Source: a virus
Strand: one strand, 5' to 3'
IMG/VR virus record: IMGVR_UViG_3300030107_002626
Coordinates: 1-55,309 of that record
DNA: 55,309 bases
This document shows, in pieces, positions 29,979 through 47,565 of the stretch. The notes below the pieces were generated by a model. The model saw only the letters and a program-made list of their open reading frames with translations. It made no database searches and had not been told where the DNA came from. Position 1 is the stretch's first letter, and each line of letters starts with the position of its first letter. Position numbers and translations under genes: made by a program.

Positions 29979-31022
29979 TTATTGATCCTTATTGTCCCGT
30001 AGGACGAGGTCGGTTTTTAGGATGCCAATTTCGGCGTTACCGGGTGCACAATCCTGCACCCATGTGCGGGTCTTGCCTTTGTTGGGGCCTGACTTGAGTG
30101 GCTTTGCGAAGTGTCGCCAATGCCCTGCTCGGAAGTGCTTACGCACCGTGCCGGGTGCCCGGGCAGTTGATTCGCCGCGAGGATCAGGCTCCGGGCTAAG
30201 GTCGCGCTCGATCACAACGTGTTCAAACTTTGGATACTTGTGCCCGTGAACAGGCTTAATCTTCCGCTCGGATGAGGGCTTCAGTCCCCGGTAGGTGGTG
30301 GTCTTCGCCGTGCGGCTGTTAATCATCTCCCACCAACTGAGAAACATATCCACGAGACTAGGGAGCAATTTTCCTGCGTCATCTAAGGGATTGCCTAGCC
30401 ACGCTGAAATGTAGGTCGGCTCGATGTCATCTGTGATTTTGAAGTGCACCTCGACTGGTAGCGGCCAAATGTCTGGCGACTGATACACGTAGTAGTTGAC
30501 GGAGATGAATTGCTCATCGGGCTCGACGCTCAGTTCTGGATAGCCTTCTTCGACAGTCCGATACTCCGCGAACATCAAGACCGTGGTTTCGCCATTCTCG
30601 CTGTGGAGGGTGGTGCTGATCGTGACCCACGGAAATGGCAAGCGCAGCGGCGTGGTTGGGATCGTGCTTGGGTCTCTATCCCAGCAATGATCTTTCGACA
30701 GGCTTGGAGTTGTGTACTTCATCCCGCTTCGGACGGCGCAGGCAACAGCGTCTTCAGTCTGAAAGCTCATCCACTTGATTGCCTCAGATTCGGCATGGCC
30801 TCTGTCTCGATGTGAAACAAACTTCATGTGAACCCAATAGTCTGTGATGCTTTTAAGCATCCGGCCAAAGGGCGTTGCGTCATCCACAATGATTGTTTCG
30901 ATGTCGCCATCGCTGGCAGTGATGGCCTTGATCTCAAACTCTGCCATCTTCGCGATCTGGTCATGCAGTCTCATCAGCGAATGGAACTCTCGCCCCAGAC
31001 CGACATCTTTTTTCCTGCTCAT
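29979..31022 (-). CDS. Protein of unknown function with basic C-terminal domain
   Basis: 347 residues, ATG preceded by AGGAGG at good spacing. The N-terminal 270 residues are mixed alpha/beta with no recognised family. The C-terminal 60 residues (HFRAGHWRHF, GPNKGKTRTWV, CAPGNAEIG) resemble a small basic domain that recurs at the C-terminus of unrelated phage proteins. It is the first gene after the last hammerhead (31048-31109), so its message would start near base 31052. Confidence 0.75.
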   Translation of the reverse strand: MSRKKDVGLGREFHSLMRLHDQIAKMAEFEIKAITASDGDIETIIVDDATPFGRMLKSITDYWVHMKFVSHRDRGHAESEAIKWMSFQTEDAVACAVRSGMKYTTPSLSKDHCWDRDPSTIPTTPLRLPFPWVTISTTLHSENGETTVLMFAEYRTVEEGYPELSVEPDEQFISVNYYVYQSPDIWPLPVEVHFKITDDIEPTYISAWLGNPLDDAGKLLPSLVDMFLSWWEMINSRTAKTTTYRGLKPSSERKIKPVHGHKYPKFEHVVIERDLSPEPDPRGESTARAPGTVRKHFRAGHWRHFAKPLKSGPNKGKTRTWVQDCAPGNAEIGILKTDLVLRDNKDQ

Positions 31023-31047
31023 TTTGAACCTCCTAGTTGGTTGGATT

Positions 31048-31109
31048 CCACGGAACCCACCGTAGCGGTGGGTTTTCGCCCGGTTTCCCTCCGGGTCTCG
31101 TCAGCGTGG
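31048..31109 (-). ncRNA. Type I hammerhead ribozyme A (47-aa gene / 347-aa gene junction)
   Basis: Minus strand: stem I CCACG/CGUGG, core CUGACGA, stem II G-[A bulge]-CCCGG/CCGGG-C, then GAA, stem III with A15.1-U16.1 and eight more pairs (ACCCACCG/CGGUGGGU), H17 = C. Predicted cleavage lies between bases 31053 and 31052. The ribozyme starts one base after the stop codon at 31111-31113, and the cut falls 30 bases before the next ATG. All invariant core bases are present. Confidence 0.9.
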
Positions 31110-31110
31110 T

Positions 31111-31254
31111 TCATGCTTCGATGATTTGAAAATCAAAGATCTCCCGAATCTTTTGAACTGCCTCCAAGCACTCGCTGTAGCTGCCTTGAATGTCTGACTC
31201 AAACCATTCTGAGTGCAAGTAGTCCCGCTCGCGAAGGTTAACGACGTAATACAT
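31111..31254 (-). CDS. 47-residue protein, unknown function
   Basis: 47 residues, ATG at 31254, TGA at 31111-31113, with GGAG 8 bases upstream of the start. Acidic and aromatic, largely helical (SECLEAVQKIREIFDFQII). It sits between a G7/C7 hairpin and hammerhead A, so it would lie on its own RNA segment if both elements act. No family recognised, but the start, ribosome site and junction structure support a real gene. Confidence 0.7.
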   Translation of the reverse strand: MYYVVNLRERDYLHSEWFESDIQGSYSECLEAVQKIREIFDFQIIEA

Positions 31255-31274
31255 ATTTGATGCTCCATATTTAT

Positions 31275-31291
31275 GGGGGGGTTGCCCCCCC
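31275..31291 (-). promoter_or_regulatory. Seven-pair G/C hairpin between VWA gene and 47-aa gene
   Basis: On the minus strand seven G, a CAA loop and seven C form a very stable hairpin 45 bases after the VWA stop and 14 bases before the next Shine-Dalgarno. There is no U-tract, so it is not a normal terminator. It takes the place of a hammerhead at this junction and may protect or block the RNA 3' end. Confidence 0.6.
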
Positions 31292-31335
31292 AGTAAGTGA
31301 TAGAAAAGTTTTCTGCAAGGCTTTGGGAAAATCTA

Positions 31336-32745
31336 TCAGTCGACGTGAATGATCTCCCCGAACTGCTCGCACCCGTAAAAATACGGATCGCTGAGATTGG
31401 TAACCCAAAACACAGGATAATCCGGTGTCTCAAAGTCCCTTCCTCCTGCGGGATCATTGGGGCCGACCCAACCCTCGCCGTCTGTAAAGTAGATCAGCGC
31501 ATGCAGGTCGATCTCTTCCGCATCAACCCAGTTGAACACTGGGGTGAAGGACGTGCCGCCGCCACCGTAGAACGCAATCTCGACATCCTCGCCGCGCTCG
31601 TACTCTTGAGTGTGCTGCACCGAGTCGTCGCAATAGACAACATGCGTTTTAATCGGATCGATCTCCGCAACAATGTCGTTGATGTGAGAAGCGTAGACGG
31701 CTAACTCATCATCGGTGAGTGACATAGATGTATCCACGGCAACGACCAGCACGCCGTTAGGCTCCTGCTGAGAGTCCGGCAGGATCAGACCCTGATGAAT
31801 CAGGCGTCGATCTGGCGTCGAGTAGCATTCCTCGCCGGGCACGGTATCGTGCAAGGCACCGGCCAGAATCTCATGCCAAGGCTGCGGGTCACGGCGTTGT
31901 GCGTCGAGAACGTTGCGTAACCATCCTCCGCTGCCATGACCCTGATGCTTGTCATGTTGGCGCTGGACCTGTGCTGCCTGTTGATTGAGCGAATCAATCT
32001 CGACCTGCTCGATGATCTGCTCGTCCTCGCTGAGCGCATTGCCGTCATCGTTGACTCCGTCGAGGACTTCACCCCAACCACCTGAGCCGCTCGGCGTATC
32101 ACCGGAACCATTGTTCGGCTCGCCATCGGGATCGCCTGAACCGTCGACTGGATACCCTCCGGGATACCCTCCGGGGCCACGGGGCTTGCCCTCGCCATCA
32201 TCGTTACCCGATTGGCCGTCAGACGGATCGCCTTCAGACTGCTCGGAATCAGCGCCAGACTGCTCGGTCTCGACGGGGTGATGGGCCTGCTCATTACCCG
32301 GTTGGTTGCCGGGCTGATCGCCGGGCTGGTTACCGGGCTCATCTTCCGCAGCCTTTTGATTGGCCGCGAAGTGACGCTCGGCGGACCAGTTATCCTGCCC
32401 GGGCTCAGGGTACACGCCATCTGCAGGCAGCACGAATCCGGCCTTGCGTAAGAGACCATTGATCGCCTGATCGCAAGCGATGTTCCACGCCTTTTGGTCT
32501 CGGGTGCCACGGCGCAGGTGGTGCCCGTTGTTGACGTGCATGCATTCATGAGCCAGCACGCCAGCAGTCTCGGCAACGCTCAGGGTCTCGACCCATGCCG
32601 GATTGAAAAACAACGACTTGCCGTCAGTCGCCATAGTCTGGGTGACCGTCTCATCAGCCCGGAACGCGAACCGATGCAGTCGGACTGCGAAGTAGGGATG
32701 GTCAGTGACCATGCGCTTTTTGGCTTTGGCGATTTTGTTATCCAT
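31336..32745 (-). CDS. VWA-domain protein with metallopeptidase-like domain (DUF2201-type)
   Basis: 469 residues, AGGAG upstream of the ATG. N-terminal domain: HECMH at 66-70 within VLAHECMHVNNGHH, a zinc HExxH motif preceded by a MATDGKSLFFNP strand. A Gly/Pro/Asp/Asn-rich acidic linker at about 130-240 follows. The C-terminal VWA-like domain has the metal-binding DTSMS near residue 336 and GGGTSFTPVF. Such proteins pair with MoxR-type AAA+ ATPases, which here lies two genes upstream. Together they may remodel or insert metal into a target; the target in phage infection is unknown. Confidence 0.87.
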   Translation of the reverse strand: MDNKIAKAKKRMVTDHPYFAVRLHRFAFRADETVTQTMATDGKSLFFNPAWVETLSVAETAGVLAHECMHVNNGHHLRRGTRDQKAWNIACDQAINGLLRKAGFVLPADGVYPEPGQDNWSAERHFAANQKAAEDEPGNQPGDQPGNQPGNEQAHHPVETEQSGADSEQSEGDPSDGQSGNDDGEGKPRGPGGYPGGYPVDGSGDPDGEPNNGSGDTPSGSGGWGEVLDGVNDDGNALSEDEQIIEQVEIDSLNQQAAQVQRQHDKHQGHGSGGWLRNVLDAQRRDPQPWHEILAGALHDTVPGEECYSTPDRRLIHQGLILPDSQQEPNGVLVVAVDTSMSLTDDELAVYASHINDIVAEIDPIKTHVVYCDDSVQHTQEYERGEDVEIAFYGGGGTSFTPVFNWVDAEEIDLHALIYFTDGEGWVGPNDPAGGRDFETPDYPVFWVTNLSDPYFYGCEQFGEIIHVD

Positions 32746-32769
32746 TTGATGTCTCCTAGTTGTTGGATT

Positions 32770-32831
32770 CCGCAGAGGCCCACCTCCCGGGGCCTTTCAC
32801 GCTGGGGTCCACCCAGCACTCATCAGTGCGG
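32770..32831 (-). ncRNA. Type I hammerhead ribozyme B (291-aa gene / VWA gene junction)
   Basis: Minus strand: stem I CCGCA/UGCGG, core CUGAUGA, stem II GUGCUGGG/CCCAGCGU, GAA, stem III AGGCCC/GGGCCU, H17 = C. Predicted cut between 32775 and 32774. It begins directly after the upstream TAA (32832-32834). The pair next to the core (10.1-11.1) is G-U instead of G-C, so this copy may be the slowest. Stem I is compensated relative to copies C and D. Confidence 0.87.
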
Positions 32832-33707
32832 TTAGTCGAAGAAACCCGAAAGCTTGCTCACGATCTCCTTGGCCGTGTCAGCGGCCTGCTGGCGCTTGCC
32901 CTCGTCTTCGCGCAGCACCTGCGGGTCCAGATCGCGAAGCTTAAGAAACAGGTCGTTCGACACTGCAGTCAACGCCGGGTCACCCGTCAGGTTGAGGCCG
33001 GGCAGTGCTTCAGCGAGCCGCTCGATTGCCTCGACCGTACTGTCAGCGAACTTGCTCGCACGCTTAGCGCCGTCAGCCTTCGTGCCGTGCCGTTCCATGC
33101 CCTCGATGAACGTGGTCAGCACCTCCGCAACACGCTCACTGACGACCTTGGCCCCGGCTTCGACCTTGGCTGCAACATCCCGCTCGACCTGCTGCCGGAT
33201 CGCGTTCACGCGCTGCTGCGGCAGGTTTACGCGAATGTCATCGCCAGAGGGCAGCGGCATCAACTTATAGCTGATGCTGTAGCGGTTGACGATCTCGGTA
33301 ACGGACGGGTAGTCGTTCTCATCGAAGGCGGCACCCAATCGAATCCTGTCCGCTTCGATGACGGCAGGCCATGTGTCCTGCAGTTCAGACTTCAGTTCCT
33401 CAAGACGGTCAGCTTTTTTCCGCAGAGCAGCCTCAAAACGGTCGAGATTGTCGACGGTGATGAGGTGAACGCCGTCATCCCAAGGCACGGTCCAAAGTCG
33501 CAAAACCGTGTTCCCAACTTGTCCGATGATCTTGTTCAACTCTTTAACCACGGCCTGTTTCGCTAGGCGTTTGGTGACGCGCAGATAACCATCTGCCGCA
33601 GACTTGTCGAAGGTCACCTGATCAGTGATCTCACGGTCGGTGATGCTGTTGTTCCATTTGGTGCAGCGCACCTTGACGAGCATCGCGTTGGTTTGAATCT
33701 TATCCAT
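32832..33707 (-). CDS. MoxR/VWA-module middle protein, unknown function
   Basis: 291 residues from the ATG at 33707, which follows the MoxR stop by 11 bases with TAGGAG between. A longer frame to 33770 runs into the MoxR gene and lacks a ribosome site. The protein has alpha/beta character at the N-terminus (LVKVRCTKWNNSITDREI), a coiled-coil-like segment (about 115-140) and a helical C-terminus. It lies between the ATPase and VWA genes, so it may be the partner or adaptor of that pair. Confidence 0.8.
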   Translation of the reverse strand: MDKIQTNAMLVKVRCTKWNNSITDREITDQVTFDKSAADGYLRVTKRLAKQAVVKELNKIIGQVGNTVLRLWTVPWDDGVHLITVDNLDRFEAALRKKADRLEELKSELQDTWPAVIEADRIRLGAAFDENDYPSVTEIVNRYSISYKLMPLPSGDDIRVNLPQQRVNAIRQQVERDVAAKVEAGAKVVSERVAEVLTTFIEGMERHGTKADGAKRASKFADSTVEAIERLAEALPGLNLTGDPALTAVSNDLFLKLRDLDPQVLREDEGKRQQAADTAKEIVSKLSGFFD

Positions 33708-33718
33708 TGTTGTTTCTC

Positions 33719-34816
33719 CTAGATTGTTAAATGTTGAGTGTCGAGTTTGAACTGCACGAAGGACTCGCACGCCTTCAGGTCGCTGTCACGATTGCCTGCG
33801 ATCATGAAGAACACTGACAGCAGTTCCTCGTTGATCCGCTTCAGGTAGCTGGCTGCGTTGTCGATGTTTCCGATGTCGCAACGCTGCGCGAGGATCATGG
33901 TGATGGCGTAATGCGTCGCCAGTTCCCGCTCACCCGGCACGTCAACGCTGTCGGGGTCTGAGAGGATCAGCCCAGCGTCCGGGAGTGCCCTGACGATGCT
34001 CAGGAACCCGGCGAACTCACTGCCAGCACCAACGCCCACTGCACCGTTGATCGCGATCTGCTCAAGCAATCGAGGCAGACCGGATCGAAGGATCTCGCTC
34101 ACTGCCTCCCAAGTCCTAGGCGTTGCCGCCGTGACGTGACCCTTTGGTATGCCGCCGTCCGGGTATTCGTGGAGCATGCCTGCCTGATCAACCTCGCCGT
34201 TGCCGTCGAGGACAGGACGGCCACGCGCTGCTAGGAAGGCGATGACTTCAGGTGCCCAACCTGCAGATGTGGCGTACTCGATGAACGGCGTGAGCGCCGG
34301 AACGATGTTCAGGTGCGTGCCAAAGCGCGTCAGCAGGGCCGCATCCTGTCGTCCGTGTACACCTGCCCCATCGCATGGGCGATTGCTCGCGACGATCACT
34401 CGCCACCCGGGAGGCAGGATGTAGTCACCGAGGCAACCATCATTGACCAGTTGGTAGCACGCCGCTTGCGACTGCTGAGCGCCGAGCAGCATCTCATCCA
34501 TGAGGAGCAGACCAAACTCACCGTCACGCTCGACGCGAGGTAGCCACCCCGGTAGCTTGAACTCGGTGAAATCGCCGACGATGTCGGGAATGCCGCGAGT
34601 GTCTACTGCTTGGAGTTGAGACAAACGGGCATCGATCAGGCCCCACTGCTGCCCGGTCTGCTCGCTCAGGCTCGCAACCACGGACCGAACGATGCTGGAC
34701 TTGCCGACCCCAAACGGGCCCCACAGGAACACGGGGCGTATGTCGCGAGGCACAAGTGCCTCGATGATTGTCGCGGCCTGTTCAAGGGTCGCGTCAGGAA
34801 TGTTTGAAAATGACAT
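33719..34816 (-). CDS. MoxR-type AAA+ ATPase
   Basis: 365 residues from the ATG at 34816 (AGGAGAG upstream); the upstream open extension covers the ribozyme and is not coding. Walker A GPFGVGKS at 33-40, Walker B LLLMDE at 103-108, sensor region VIVASNRPCDGAG near 140. MoxR ATPases are chaperone-like and act with VWA proteins, as here. The C-terminal half is helical. The gene follows hammerhead C and is the only member of the module joined to its downstream gene without a ribozyme, so MoxR and the 291-residue protein may need to be made together. Confidence 0.9.
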   Translation of the reverse strand: MSFSNIPDATLEQAATIIEALVPRDIRPVFLWGPFGVGKSSIVRSVVASLSEQTGQQWGLIDARLSQLQAVDTRGIPDIVGDFTEFKLPGWLPRVERDGEFGLLLMDEMLLGAQQSQAACYQLVNDGCLGDYILPPGWRVIVASNRPCDGAGVHGRQDAALLTRFGTHLNIVPALTPFIEYATSAGWAPEVIAFLAARGRPVLDGNGEVDQAGMLHEYPDGGIPKGHVTAATPRTWEAVSEILRSGLPRLLEQIAINGAVGVGAGSEFAGFLSIVRALPDAGLILSDPDSVDVPGERELATHYAITMILAQRCDIGNIDNAASYLKRINEELLSVFFMIAGNRDSDLKACESFVQFKLDTQHLTI

Positions 34817-34841
34817 ATGAATCTCTCCTAGTTTTTGGATT

Positions 34842-34898
34842 CCACAGACGCCCGTCAGGGCGTTTCGGCCAGTGTCCCGCTGGCACTCATCAGTGTGG
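34842..34898 (-). ncRNA. Type I hammerhead ribozyme C (142-aa gene / MoxR junction)
   Basis: Minus strand: stem I CCACA/UGUGG, core CUGAUGA, stem II G-[U bulge]-GCCAG/CUGGC-C, GAA, stem III ACGCCC/GGGCGU with UGAC loop, GUC cleavage triplet. Predicted cut between 34847 and 34846. Outside stem I, GGGUU from the upstream gene end can pair with AAUCC, lengthening it with a bulge. It starts nine bases after the TGA. Confidence 0.92.
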
Positions 34899-34907
34899 CT
34901 CAACCCG

Positions 34908-35336
34908 TCAATACCAGCGATTAAATCCTGAGAGAGCGGCGTTGATTGGGTAGTCTTCCTGCTTGTTGCTGGGGGCGACCTTGCGGAGGATCGCGTTGAT
35001 GCGACGTGGATCGCCCAGCACCACGTTGTCGCAGCGCGGGTGCTTCGCGAAAAACTCAGCGTGCCGCCGTTCCATCGCGGCATTAGTCAGGCTGGTGCTG
35101 CCAAATGTGTAGCCGTTGATCGTCTCAGGTTGCGGCAGATGCTTGCGTGCCTCGACAATCCCCAGCGCCGCACGGCGCTCAGCGGTGCGCGGCACAATGA
35201 ATTTTTCCCAGCGGCGAGGCCCCTCAATAAACTCGCTGCGCTTCGCCGCGAAGCCTTCGCGCTTCAAGATCTCCAGCGCTCGCTGCTCGGCTGCCGTGAC
35301 CTTTAAGGTCCGCCCGTTCAGTGTGATGGTCTTCAT
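34908..35336 (-). CDS. 142-residue protein, unknown function
   Basis: 142 residues, ATG preceded by AGGAG at 7 bases. The N-terminus has short beta strands (KTITLNGRTLKVT) then a helix with basic residues (EILKREGFAAKRSEF), like a small winged DNA- or RNA-binding domain, followed by Arg/His-rich helices. It lies between hammerheads D and C and would be translated from its own cleaved RNA. No family recognised. Confidence 0.75.
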   Translation of the reverse strand: MKTITLNGRTLKVTAAEQRALEILKREGFAAKRSEFIEGPRRWEKFIVPRTAERRAALGIVEARKHLPQPETINGYTFGSTSLTNAAMERRHAEFFAKHPRCDNVVLGDPRRINAILRKVAPSNKQEDYPINAALSGFNRWY

Positions 35337-35359
35337 GATGTTCTCCTAGTTTTCGGATT

Positions 35360-35417
35360 CCACAGACGCCCCGGGTGGGGCGTTTCGACTGGTGTCCATC
35401 CAGTCTCATCAGTGTGG
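35360..35417 (-). ncRNA. Type I hammerhead ribozyme D (180-aa gene / 142-aa gene junction)
   Basis: Minus strand: stem I CCACA/UGUGG, core CUGAUGA, stem II GACUGG/CCAGUC with AUGGACA loop, GAA, stem III ACGCCCC/GGGGCGU with ACC(C) loop, GUC triplet. Predicted cut between 35365 and 35364. It starts one base after the UAA at 35419-35421 and ends 25 bases before the next ATG. This is the most canonical copy, with no mismatches or bulges. Confidence 0.94.
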
Positions 35418-35418
35418 G

Positions 35419-35961
35419 TTAGATTGCGGCATACGCCGGGAAGCTTTGCTCTTCTCTGAGAAGGTCTTCCCAGACCGAGTCGATCAAGCGATGCCCCAGC
35501 GCAGCGTTGAAAAAGTCGAGCAGTTCACGAGCGTTTCCGCCGTGTCTCTCGGCGATGATGTCAAATGCTCTGACGACTCCTCTCTGAGCAGTGCTCCGTG
35601 AACAGTTGTACTCACTGGCAGTGAGCGCCGTGAACTGCTCAATGACGAACGAATTGAGTTGCCGGTACGCCAGCAGTGAATCATTGGGCCGACCTTTGTA
35701 GATAAGTTTGGCAAGCACCTGCAGCCTGCGGCGGTTCCGCTCGTAGGTGGCCTGACCGTCGTTCTCATAGCTGCCCTCGACCCACAGGCTGAGGCAGTCG
35801 GCTGCGCGGGTCGTCTGAGCCGCTTGGGTGAGTGCACTGAACCCGACCAGTTCACGCTCGGGCCGGGTGGCACCTGCACTCTTCAGATCGGCAGTGTGAG
35901 AGGCATGCGCCCATTCGATGTCTAGTACCAGATCGTTGGCGATGGTTTGGGTGACGTTCAT
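35419..35961 (-). CDS. 180-residue helical protein, first gene of ribozyme operon
   Basis: 180 residues, ATG with AGGAG at 7 bases. Helical, Ala/Arg/Leu-rich, with no recognised motif. The 3' end is GC-rich like its neighbours. It is preceded by the permuted hammerhead E and followed by hammerhead D. Function unknown; the operon context links it to the MoxR/VWA module. Confidence 0.75.
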   Translation of the reverse strand: MNVTQTIANDLVLDIEWAHASHTADLKSAGATRPERELVGFSALTQAAQTTRAADCLSLWVEGSYENDGQATYERNRRRLQVLAKLIYKGRPNDSLLAYRQLNSFVIEQFTALTASEYNCSRSTAQRGVVRAFDIIAERHGGNARELLDFFNAALGHRLIDSVWEDLLREEQSFPAYAAI

Positions 35962-35980
35962 GATGTTCTCCTAGTGGTTT

Positions 35981-36033
35981 GCGTTTCGGCCTGCCGTGGC
36001 CCTCGTCAGTGCATCGGCATTAGATGCATACGC
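35981..36033 (-). ncRNA. Permuted type III hammerhead ribozyme E at operon head
   Basis: Minus strand order: stem III 5' strand GCGU, H17 = A (GUA triplet), stem I UGCAUC/GAUGCA closed by UAAUGCC, core CUGACGA, stem II G-[G bulge]-GCC/GGC-C, GAA, stem III 3' strand ACGC. Predicted cut between 36029 and 36028. All invariant bases are present. Stem III has only four pairs but abuts an 8-bp hairpin at 36035-36054 that could stack on it. The topology differs from copies A-D, which are open at stem I. Confidence 0.82.
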
Positions 36034-36172
36034 TGTACATGCTCTCGCATGTACCGGGGCACTCTGGGTGACATGAGGTCACGCCCCGCGACGGTGTGTA
36101 CGCTTTACGCCTCTCCGGCATTCTTACCGGGTCAAAGGGTGCGCCGGATTCAAACCGGAGGGCCGAGGCCCC
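36034..36172 (-). ncRNA. Highly structured leader RNA upstream of ribozyme E
   Basis: On the minus strand a row of helices precedes the ribozyme: GUACAUGC/GCAUGUAC with a GAGA tetraloop (36035-36054); GGGGC/GCCCC enclosing GUGAC/GUCAC with a 7-base bulge (36056-36087); two CCGG/CCGG hairpins (36115-36130, 36144-36158); and GGGC/GCCC (36160-36171). No open frame of note. It could be a stable 5' leader, a regulatory RNA, or the 5' product left by cleavage at E. Confidence 0.6.
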
Positions 36173-45944: not shown

Positions 45945-46883
45945 ATGGCAATTTCAAGAGCGCAAATGCTCAAAGAACTCCTGCCGGGGCTTAACGCTCT
46001 TTTTGGTTTGGAGTATGAAAAGTACGAAGATGAGCACACTCTCCTTTATGAGACTGAAAGCTCTGATCGTTCTTTCGAGGAAGAGGTGAAGCTGTCAGGG
46101 TTTGCTGCTGCGCCGGTTAAAGCTGAAGGTGCTGCCATCAGCTATGACTCCGCACAGGAATCTTTCACGGCTCGTTACAATCATGAAACCATCGCTATGG
46201 GTTTCGCCATTACCGAAGAGGCTATGGAAGATAACTTGTATGACTCTTTGTCTGCTCGTTACACCAAGGCTCTTGCTCGGGCTATGGCCTACACCAAGCA
46301 AGTTAAGGCGGTTAACCCGCTTAACAATGGCTTCACCAATAGTTACCAGTCAGGTGACGGGGTAAACCTGTTTACTGCATCTGGTGACGGTGTAACTGGT
46401 GGTGACGGTCACCCTCTCGTCAATGGCGGGAAAAACAGCAATCGGCCTTCTACGGCTGCTGACCTAAACGAAACGTCTCTGGAGAATGCAATTATTGATA
46501 TTGCAGCCTTCACTGACGAACGTGGTCTGTTGATTGCTGCTCGTCCTCGTCGCCTGATCGTTCCTCCCGCTTTGATGTTTACGGCAGATCGACTGCTTGA
46601 AACAACTCAGCGTGTTGGCACGGCAGACAATGATCTCAACGCTATCCGCAACATGGGTGCAATCCCCGAGGGATACAGCGTTAATCATTACCTGACGGAC
46701 AGCAATGCTTTCTTCCTGATTACGGACGTACCTAACGGTATGAAGCATTTTGAGAGGACCGAACTGGAAACCTCAATGGACGGAGACTTCGACACTGGCA
46801 ACGTGCGCTACAAAGCTCGCGCTCGTTACAGCTTCGGTGTGTCTGACCCGCTGGGCATCTACGGATCACCCGGCGCAAGCTAA
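45945..46883 (+). CDS. Major capsid protein (HK97 fold)
   Basis: 312 residues, AAGGAG upstream. Features of a phage coat: N-terminal EEEVKLSGFAAAPVKAEGAA, ETIAMGFAITEEAMEDNLYD (E-loop and spine-helix region), then PRRLIVPPALMFTADRLLET and a C-terminal RYKARARYSFGVSDPLGIYG. Position after scaffold and decoration genes agrees. A strong terminator follows at once, as for highly expressed coat genes. T number cannot be inferred. Confidence 0.87.
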   Translation: MAISRAQMLKELLPGLNALFGLEYEKYEDEHTLLYETESSDRSFEEEVKLSGFAAAPVKAEGAAISYDSAQESFTARYNHETIAMGFAITEEAMEDNLYDSLSARYTKALARAMAYTKQVKAVNPLNNGFTNSYQSGDGVNLFTASGDGVTGGDGHPLVNGGKNSNRPSTAADLNETSLENAIIDIAAFTDERGLLIAARPRRLIVPPALMFTADRLLETTQRVGTADNDLNAIRNMGAIPEGYSVNHYLTDSNAFFLITDVPNGMKHFERTELETSMDGDFDTGNVRYKARARYSFGVSDPLGIYGSPGAS

Positions 46884-46958: not shown

Positions 46959-47040
46959 GCTTGTTCTTTTAATATCTTTCCCCTGACTGTAATGTTCCAA
47001 CTAGAGCATTAGCAGACACTAGCCAAGACAGGAGAAACAC

Positions 47041-47565
47041 ATGGCTAATACCACCTTCACCGGAGCAGTCCGGTCTGAAAACGGCTTTGATGTCGTTTCA
47101 AAAAACAGCACAACCGGAGCGTTTACCACATCCTTTACCCTTGACGGGTCTGGTATGCAGGTTACCCCGGTCTCTCTGGCCGACGCTGCCTCCACAACAT
47201 TGACCGCTGCTGTAAATGGTGGCCGTATAAATCTGGTTGGCGACAACAGCCAAGACAGCACTTATACGCTGCCAGCTCCTGCTGCCGGGGTCTTTTATCG
47301 TTTTGTTTATGCAGGCGCTGCGGCAGATGCTACTGATGCGCTTATTGTTACCCCCGGTAACACAAACTTTTACAAAGGCGGCGTAACCTTTTTGGATACG
47401 GACAACGAAGTAAGTGTTGTGTTCTCCGATGGGAACTCTAATAGCAGCATTCAGATTAATGTTCCTGCAGCTTTCGACATCACGATCATTGGTTTGGATA
47501 CTACCAATTACCAAATCTTTGGGACCGTGACTGGCGCAACTGCTCCCGCGTTTGCTGATCAGTAA
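47041..47565 (+). CDS. Beta-rich virion protein
   Basis: 174 residues, AGGAG 7 bases before the ATG. Thr/Ser/Val/Ala-rich beta strands throughout (GAFTTSFTLDGSGMQVTP, then TYTLPAPAAGVFYRFVYAG). It resembles short head-fibre or decoration proteins of marine phages. Starts a new transcription unit after the capsid terminator, though no promoter was clear. Function inferred from composition and position. Confidence 0.65.
   Translation: MANTTFTGAVRSENGFDVVSKNSTTGAFTTSFTLDGSGMQVTPVSLADAASTTLTAAVNGGRINLVGDNSQDSTYTLPAPAAGVFYRFVYAGAAADATDALIVTPGNTNFYKGGVTFLDTDNEVSVVFSDGNSNSSIQINVPAAFDITIIGLDTTNYQIFGTVTGATAPAFADQ

Follow-up and report, generated by a model that had tools for sequence, protein, structure and literature searches.

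The window analysed here is the whole of an uncultured phage record (IMG/VR record IMGVR_UViG_3300030107_002626, 55,309 bases), and its minus strand carries an operon in which protein-coding genes are interspersed with five hammerhead ribozymes, all with intact catalytic cores. Read in the direction of transcription, a leader and a type III ribozyme are followed by A180, a type I ribozyme, B142, a type I ribozyme, a MoxR gene, gpD, a type I ribozyme, a VWA gene, gp47, a type I ribozyme, F347, gp72 and a further small frame. A180 (35419-35961), the first gene past the type III ribozyme, and B142 (34908-35336) are open reading frames for hypothetical proteins and gpD (32832-33707) encodes a conserved hypothetical protein with 37 relatives; none of the three had a match in Pfam or PHROG. 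The gene at 33719-34816 encodes a MoxR-like AAA+ ATPase (PHROG 1297, E = 2.6e-55), with tblastn matches to phage genes annotated as MoxR-like ATPase, and its stop codon lies inside the Shine-Dalgarno sequence of gpD (TAGGAG) at a junction without a ribozyme. The next product is a metallopeptidase-VWA protein (31336-32745; Pfam DUF2201_N, E = 1.6e-41, and DUF2201, E = 4.7e-18), followed by the small hypothetical protein gp47 (31110-31253, start placed to within one base), an open reading frame with a Shine-Dalgarno-like GGAG. F347 (29979-31022), a hypothetical protein with a remote match in locus L133, lies downstream of the last ribozyme. At the ribozyme-free junction of the VWA gene and gp47 there is a perfect GGGGGGG-CAA-CCCCCCC hairpin (31275-31291, minus strand). 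A promoter scan of the operon, confined to sigma-70-like sites, returned 0 promoters against 3.4 in shuffled sequences.

The four type I copies, all on the minus strand, combine a CUGANGA and GAAA core with closed stems II and III and an open stem I, and have permitted nucleotides at the cut site (U16.1 and H17). The copy at 35360-35417 sits at the A180/B142 junction, 1 nt after the A180 stop UAA, with a predicted cut at 35365/35364, and the GGA of its loop II pairs with the tail AAUCC. The copy at 34842-34898 (B142/MoxR junction, predicted cut 34847/34846) begins 9 nt after the B142 stop, that at 32770-32831 (gpD/VWA gene junction, predicted cut 32775/32774) directly adjoins the gpD stop UAA and has G-U as the basal pair of its stem II, and that at 31048-31109 (gp47/F347 junction, predicted cut 31053/31052) lies 1 nt beyond the gp47 stop UGA. 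A GGA:UCC tertiary contact between loop II and the stem I side was found in all four. The fifth ribozyme, at the operon head (35981-36033, minus strand), has the same core with stem III open, making it type III; its UGCC in loop I can pair with GGCA in loop II, and its predicted cut, 36029/36028, was read from the sequence. In minimum-energy folds stem III forms a stable hairpin, and in three type I copies the core contains a small hairpin that competes with the hammerhead fold. An alternative fold of type III at 35380-35436 on the minus strand is weak (E = 3e-4) and reaches into the end of A180; it was discounted as a separate ribozyme as it overlaps the type I copy at 35360 and shares its core.

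Two descriptors and two covariance models were used to detect these elements. The strict descriptor, which demands a permitted cut site and all three helices in addition to CUGANGA and GAA, had just four matches in the 55 kb, namely the type I copies (0 to 0.02 matches per shuffled window), and the relaxed descriptor added a single match, 35981-36033, where 0.1 was expected per shuffle. Model R1 was built from 24 distinct type I copies and model R2 from six type III copies, all from other phages and with the window left out. R1 recovered the window copies at 32764-32831 (E = 3.7e-18), 35354-35417 (E = 6.6e-18), 34836-34898 (E = 4.5e-17) and 31042-31109 (E = 3.7e-13), and R2 recovered the type III copy, which is also supported by its fold, with E = 1.3e-15; these E-values are rough, as calibrations were short, but the margin is large. 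Five minus-strand hammerheads, as described in the initial annotation, were thus borne out by both descriptors and by models that had seen only relatives, and the cut sites derived independently here (for 36029/36028, read from the sequence) are the same as those it had given. A scan of the window and eight relatives with the Rfam hammerhead families, RF03152 and RF00008 among them, yielded no hammerhead at the gathering cutoff. The weak sub-threshold matches in the window were to RAGATH-1 and Hammerhead_3 (29, 26 and 21 bits). The closest resemblance is to the RAGATH-1 hammerhead (RF03152), which is likewise laid out as type I, its open stem I being short, and to which window copies score 29 and 26 bits against a cutoff of 56.3. 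The search with Rfam models that had been proposed as a check would therefore have failed, and this exposes a blind spot, as the standard RNA family library overlooks these ribozymes. Rfam also identified a Mu-gpT-DE RNA on the plus strand at 46981-47043 (50.6 bits, E = 8.5e-9), directly before an open reading frame at 47041 and after that at 45945-46883.

Related loci were gathered by terminase, MoxR and gpD searches together with two ribozyme patterns. Searches with single MoxR and VWA proteins found no relatives, whereas those with MoxR and gpD alignments were successful. Arrays of 2 to 7 hammerheads occur in dozens of metagenomic contigs from uncultured phages, always on the operon strand; every model match in the operon relatives is on that strand, and in the last set of loci all 32 with at least two descriptor matches have them on one strand. 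Counting models and descriptor together, L324 and L328 have seven ribozymes, L268 and L316 six and L225 five, and L291 has an array of six in which all three types are present. The array is therefore not a single case, nor is it the biggest, as relatives have up to seven ribozymes; the window belongs to a large group and is well supplied among its members. Model searches of distant relatives found no such ribozymes, and none were present in the stretches read of HTVC027P, DSL-LC04, 023Pt_psg01, HTVC023P and Pag-Yong1, the closest named phages with related terminases. Comparison of the operon with named phages at the nucleotide level gave no match. No gpD relative was found in bacterial genome contigs, which consequently offer no clue to a host or a prophage state.

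The arrays of L324, L328, L268, L316, L291, L335 and L313 adjoin another conserved gene, of family f36 (about 300 aa), instead of MoxR. A loose DNA pattern was also applied and matched 120 contigs; nearly all of these matches are chance, and true type I pairs were confined to three contigs from two phages (L103, 8885-10574; L119, 2069-3864; L028, 12307-14102), which show the same loop II to tail pairing. L103 and L119 are phage contigs in which no MoxR match was found.

Paired cells make up 98.5% of the helices in the alignment of the relatives' 24 distinct type I copies, and two-sided changes occur in 14 of the 20 pairs. This pairing score was reached by none of 500 shuffles, a count that is not a probability as the relatives share kinship, and in slid controls, which retain the relatedness, pairing collapses to 27 to 41%. 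All four helices covary strongly, including the pseudoknot that joins loop II to the tail immediately 3' of stem I. This pseudoknot pairs in 100% of cells, 2 of its 4 pairs change on both sides, and it occurs in the variants UGGA:UCCA, UGGU:ACCA, UAGU:ACUA and UUGCU:AGCAA. The six type III copies are paired in 98.1% of cells, the kissing helix of loop I and loop II included. An earlier loop-tail swap test, loose in register, was weak (mean run 4.39 against 3.93; 1/2000), and was replaced by this column count of paired cells. Comparative support for selection on the hammerhead fold is very strong, and the sequence data establish the fold and the intact cores, with their covariation, strand, placement and conservation.

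These data also bear on whether cleavage matters at all. The elements could be nothing but hairpins behind stop codons that hinder exonucleases or read-through, with cleavage dispensable, and each type I copy would indeed leave a strong stem III just behind the stop codon, a hairpin that is stable in the predicted folds. Such a barrier would need neither the catalytic core, nor the U-H of the cut site, nor the tertiary pseudoknot, yet all are kept across the relatives, and we regard this explanation as barely credible.

The arrangement of the ribozymes follows regular rules. Wherever a type III copy occurs beside other hammerheads it is the most 5' ribozyme, in 9 of 9 arrays (the window, L133, L208, L227, L230, L231, L260, L291 and L335), with type I and rarely type II inside the array. 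If position were random this would be expected about once in 23,000, a figure weakened by shared descent. A lone type III copy sits at an internal junction in L165 and probably in L155. For nearly all type I copies the upstream stop codon ends at most 13 nt before the ribozyme starts and at most 9 nt past that point, and gene starts are mostly 10 to 36 nt downstream. In most relatives the MoxR-gpD-VWA module has a ribozyme at its 5' border or close to it, even where the order is gpD-MoxR, and in no mapped relative does one lie between MoxR and gpD; the gene map was called mechanically and its small unnamed frames are uncertain. Within the window, ribozymes occupy 4 of the 8 internal junctions and are absent from MoxR/gpD, VWA/gp47, F347/gp72 and gp72/next, so that the initial description of an array separating almost every gene was overstated. 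Its placement of four ribozymes exactly between a stop codon and the next AGGAG identified the right junctions, but not the exact spacing at 34842-34898, which does not follow its stop directly.

In gene families f7, f10 and f11 the upstream stop is the UGA of the CUGANGA core itself. The f7 and f10 proteins that end in this way terminate in Ser-Asn, encoded by stem I, and a homologue of f10 without a ribozyme has the C-terminus FPTNGA in place of FSN. At least seven unrelated small genes occupy the place upstream of the MoxR-border ribozyme in different phages. Both observations suit an explanation in which the ribozymes are mainly borders of exchangeable gene cassettes: recombination would find homology in short, near-identical elements, and any gene could be inserted thanks to a self-contained stop codon and processed ends. 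Stems II and III differ strongly within one phage and are kept by compensatory changes, which recombination alone does not require, and similar places are taken by copies of any of the three types, indicating that activity and not sequence is what is kept. Cassette exchange as the main role is therefore considered unlikely.

A further possibility is that flanking type I ribozymes release single-gene RNAs whose ends pair again and are ligated into circles, or that religation splices a gene out. Within a phage, the product strand of one type I copy can pair fully with stem I of the following copy: this holds for 2 of the window's 3 neighbouring pairs and for all seven in L224 and L225. This pairing fails in L230 (2/5), is imperfect in L152 and in the last pair of the window, and similar stem I sequences are explained by shared descent alone. 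A search for spliced or circular products by Perreault et al. was negative (PMC3088659), and such a fate for these RNAs seems very improbable.

Upstream of the array, the leader contains the motif CUCCGGU-NNGAN-UCCGGCGC (36141-36160, minus strand), 107 nt upstream of the first ribozyme. It is matched exactly in 27 of 357 loci (the window and 26 further), forms a T-loop-like hairpin with compensatory variants in L294 and L134, and had no Rfam match. It bears what we take to be a partial resemblance to the L4 loop of cobalamin riboswitches, and may be a separate undescribed leader element.

The best reading of the locus from its sequence, and one we hold to be probable, is that of a hammerhead-punctuated phage operon in which one transcript is cut in cis into separate messages with 5'-OH leaders. 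Hammerhead cleavage leaves a 2',3'-cyclic phosphate on the upstream product and a 5'-OH on the downstream one. A single minus-strand transcript would start in the intergenic region that diverges from the terminase gene and would be cut at five sites during synthesis; the lack of sigma-70-like promoters inside the operon agrees with this. The type III copy would remove the long leader. It does head the operon, as had been noted, but being circularly permuted it would leave its body on the downstream RNA, at the 5' end of the first message, and not upstream. Each type I copy would cut just ahead of the ribosome-binding site of the next gene, so that the downstream message begins with a short 5'-OH leader, UGUGGAAUCC...AGGAG or a near-identical sequence, and the upstream message retains stems II and III, which would structure its 3' end immediately behind the stop codon. 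With a type III copy ahead of the type I copies, the first message would therefore be structured at both ends. The predicted messages are A180, B142, MoxR-gpD, VWA-gp47 and F347 onward, and the stability and translation of each could differ from those of the others. We infer cleavage in the cell, the chemistry of the ends and any effects on stability and dosage from the features described above. Against this cutting model stand the half of the internal junctions that have no ribozyme, the G-U pair at 32770 and the competing core hairpins.

Translation through the stop codon could keep a ribozyme unfolded, resulting in partial cleavage in the cell. As folding should be hindered by a ribosome that stops within the core or next to it, this phage clade might even have a dedicated RNA punctuation system in which cutting is coupled to translation: the terminating ribosome would cover the ribozyme, and the cut would have to wait until translation of the upstream gene is over and the ribosome has left, with type III trimming the leader and type I parting the genes. 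This is possible, if rather doubtful.

Clustered hammerheads that flank prophage genes were described by Perreault et al. in 2011, who proposed a role in the processing of long transcripts and report that tandem phage hammerheads cleave in vitro and one triple in vivo (PMC3088659). The window array has the same arrangement, several hammerheads flanking genes in phage DNA, and the clusters share with it mixed types close to each other and pseudoknots in types I to III. As the processing idea was proposed and a triple tested in that work (PMC3088659), it is not new, and the initial view that such an array may be undescribed went too far. The differences are that the text of that paper names a triple and gives gene identities as not constant (PMC3088659), whereas the arrays described here have five ribozymes, or up to seven in relatives, with a type III copy leading; stop codons can fall within the core, and the module behind a ribozyme, MoxR-gpD-VWA, is conserved. 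The same paper also describes the HHphage variant of haloviruses HF1 and HF2, 13 nt upstream of a phage gene start and with a mapped transcript 5' end close to the cut site (PMC3088659); that is a single variant ribozyme in archaeal virus genomes, and not an array. Hammerhead and twister ribozymes are enriched near phage genes and near each other for an unknown reason (PMC10085705). Those ribozymes, like the ones described here, neighbour others in phage-linked loci, but the case reported involves Mu-like phage genes, and the present phage is a terminase-portal phage with a defined operon grammar. A text search of open-licence literature turned up no account of arrays this large or of core-located stop codons, and the scale, the order, the stop-codon overlap and the clade-wide conservation of the arrays look new.

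The role of such ribozymes was called open both in a 2017 review (PMC6155905) and in a 2023 paper (PMC10085705). The loci described here offer many arrays in one operon and a simple grammar: type III comes first, type I copies lie at the junctions, the stop codon is in or beside the core, and a conserved module stands behind a ribozyme. With these, the question of why bacteria and phages retain clustered self-cleaving ribozymes (PMC10085705) becomes directly testable.
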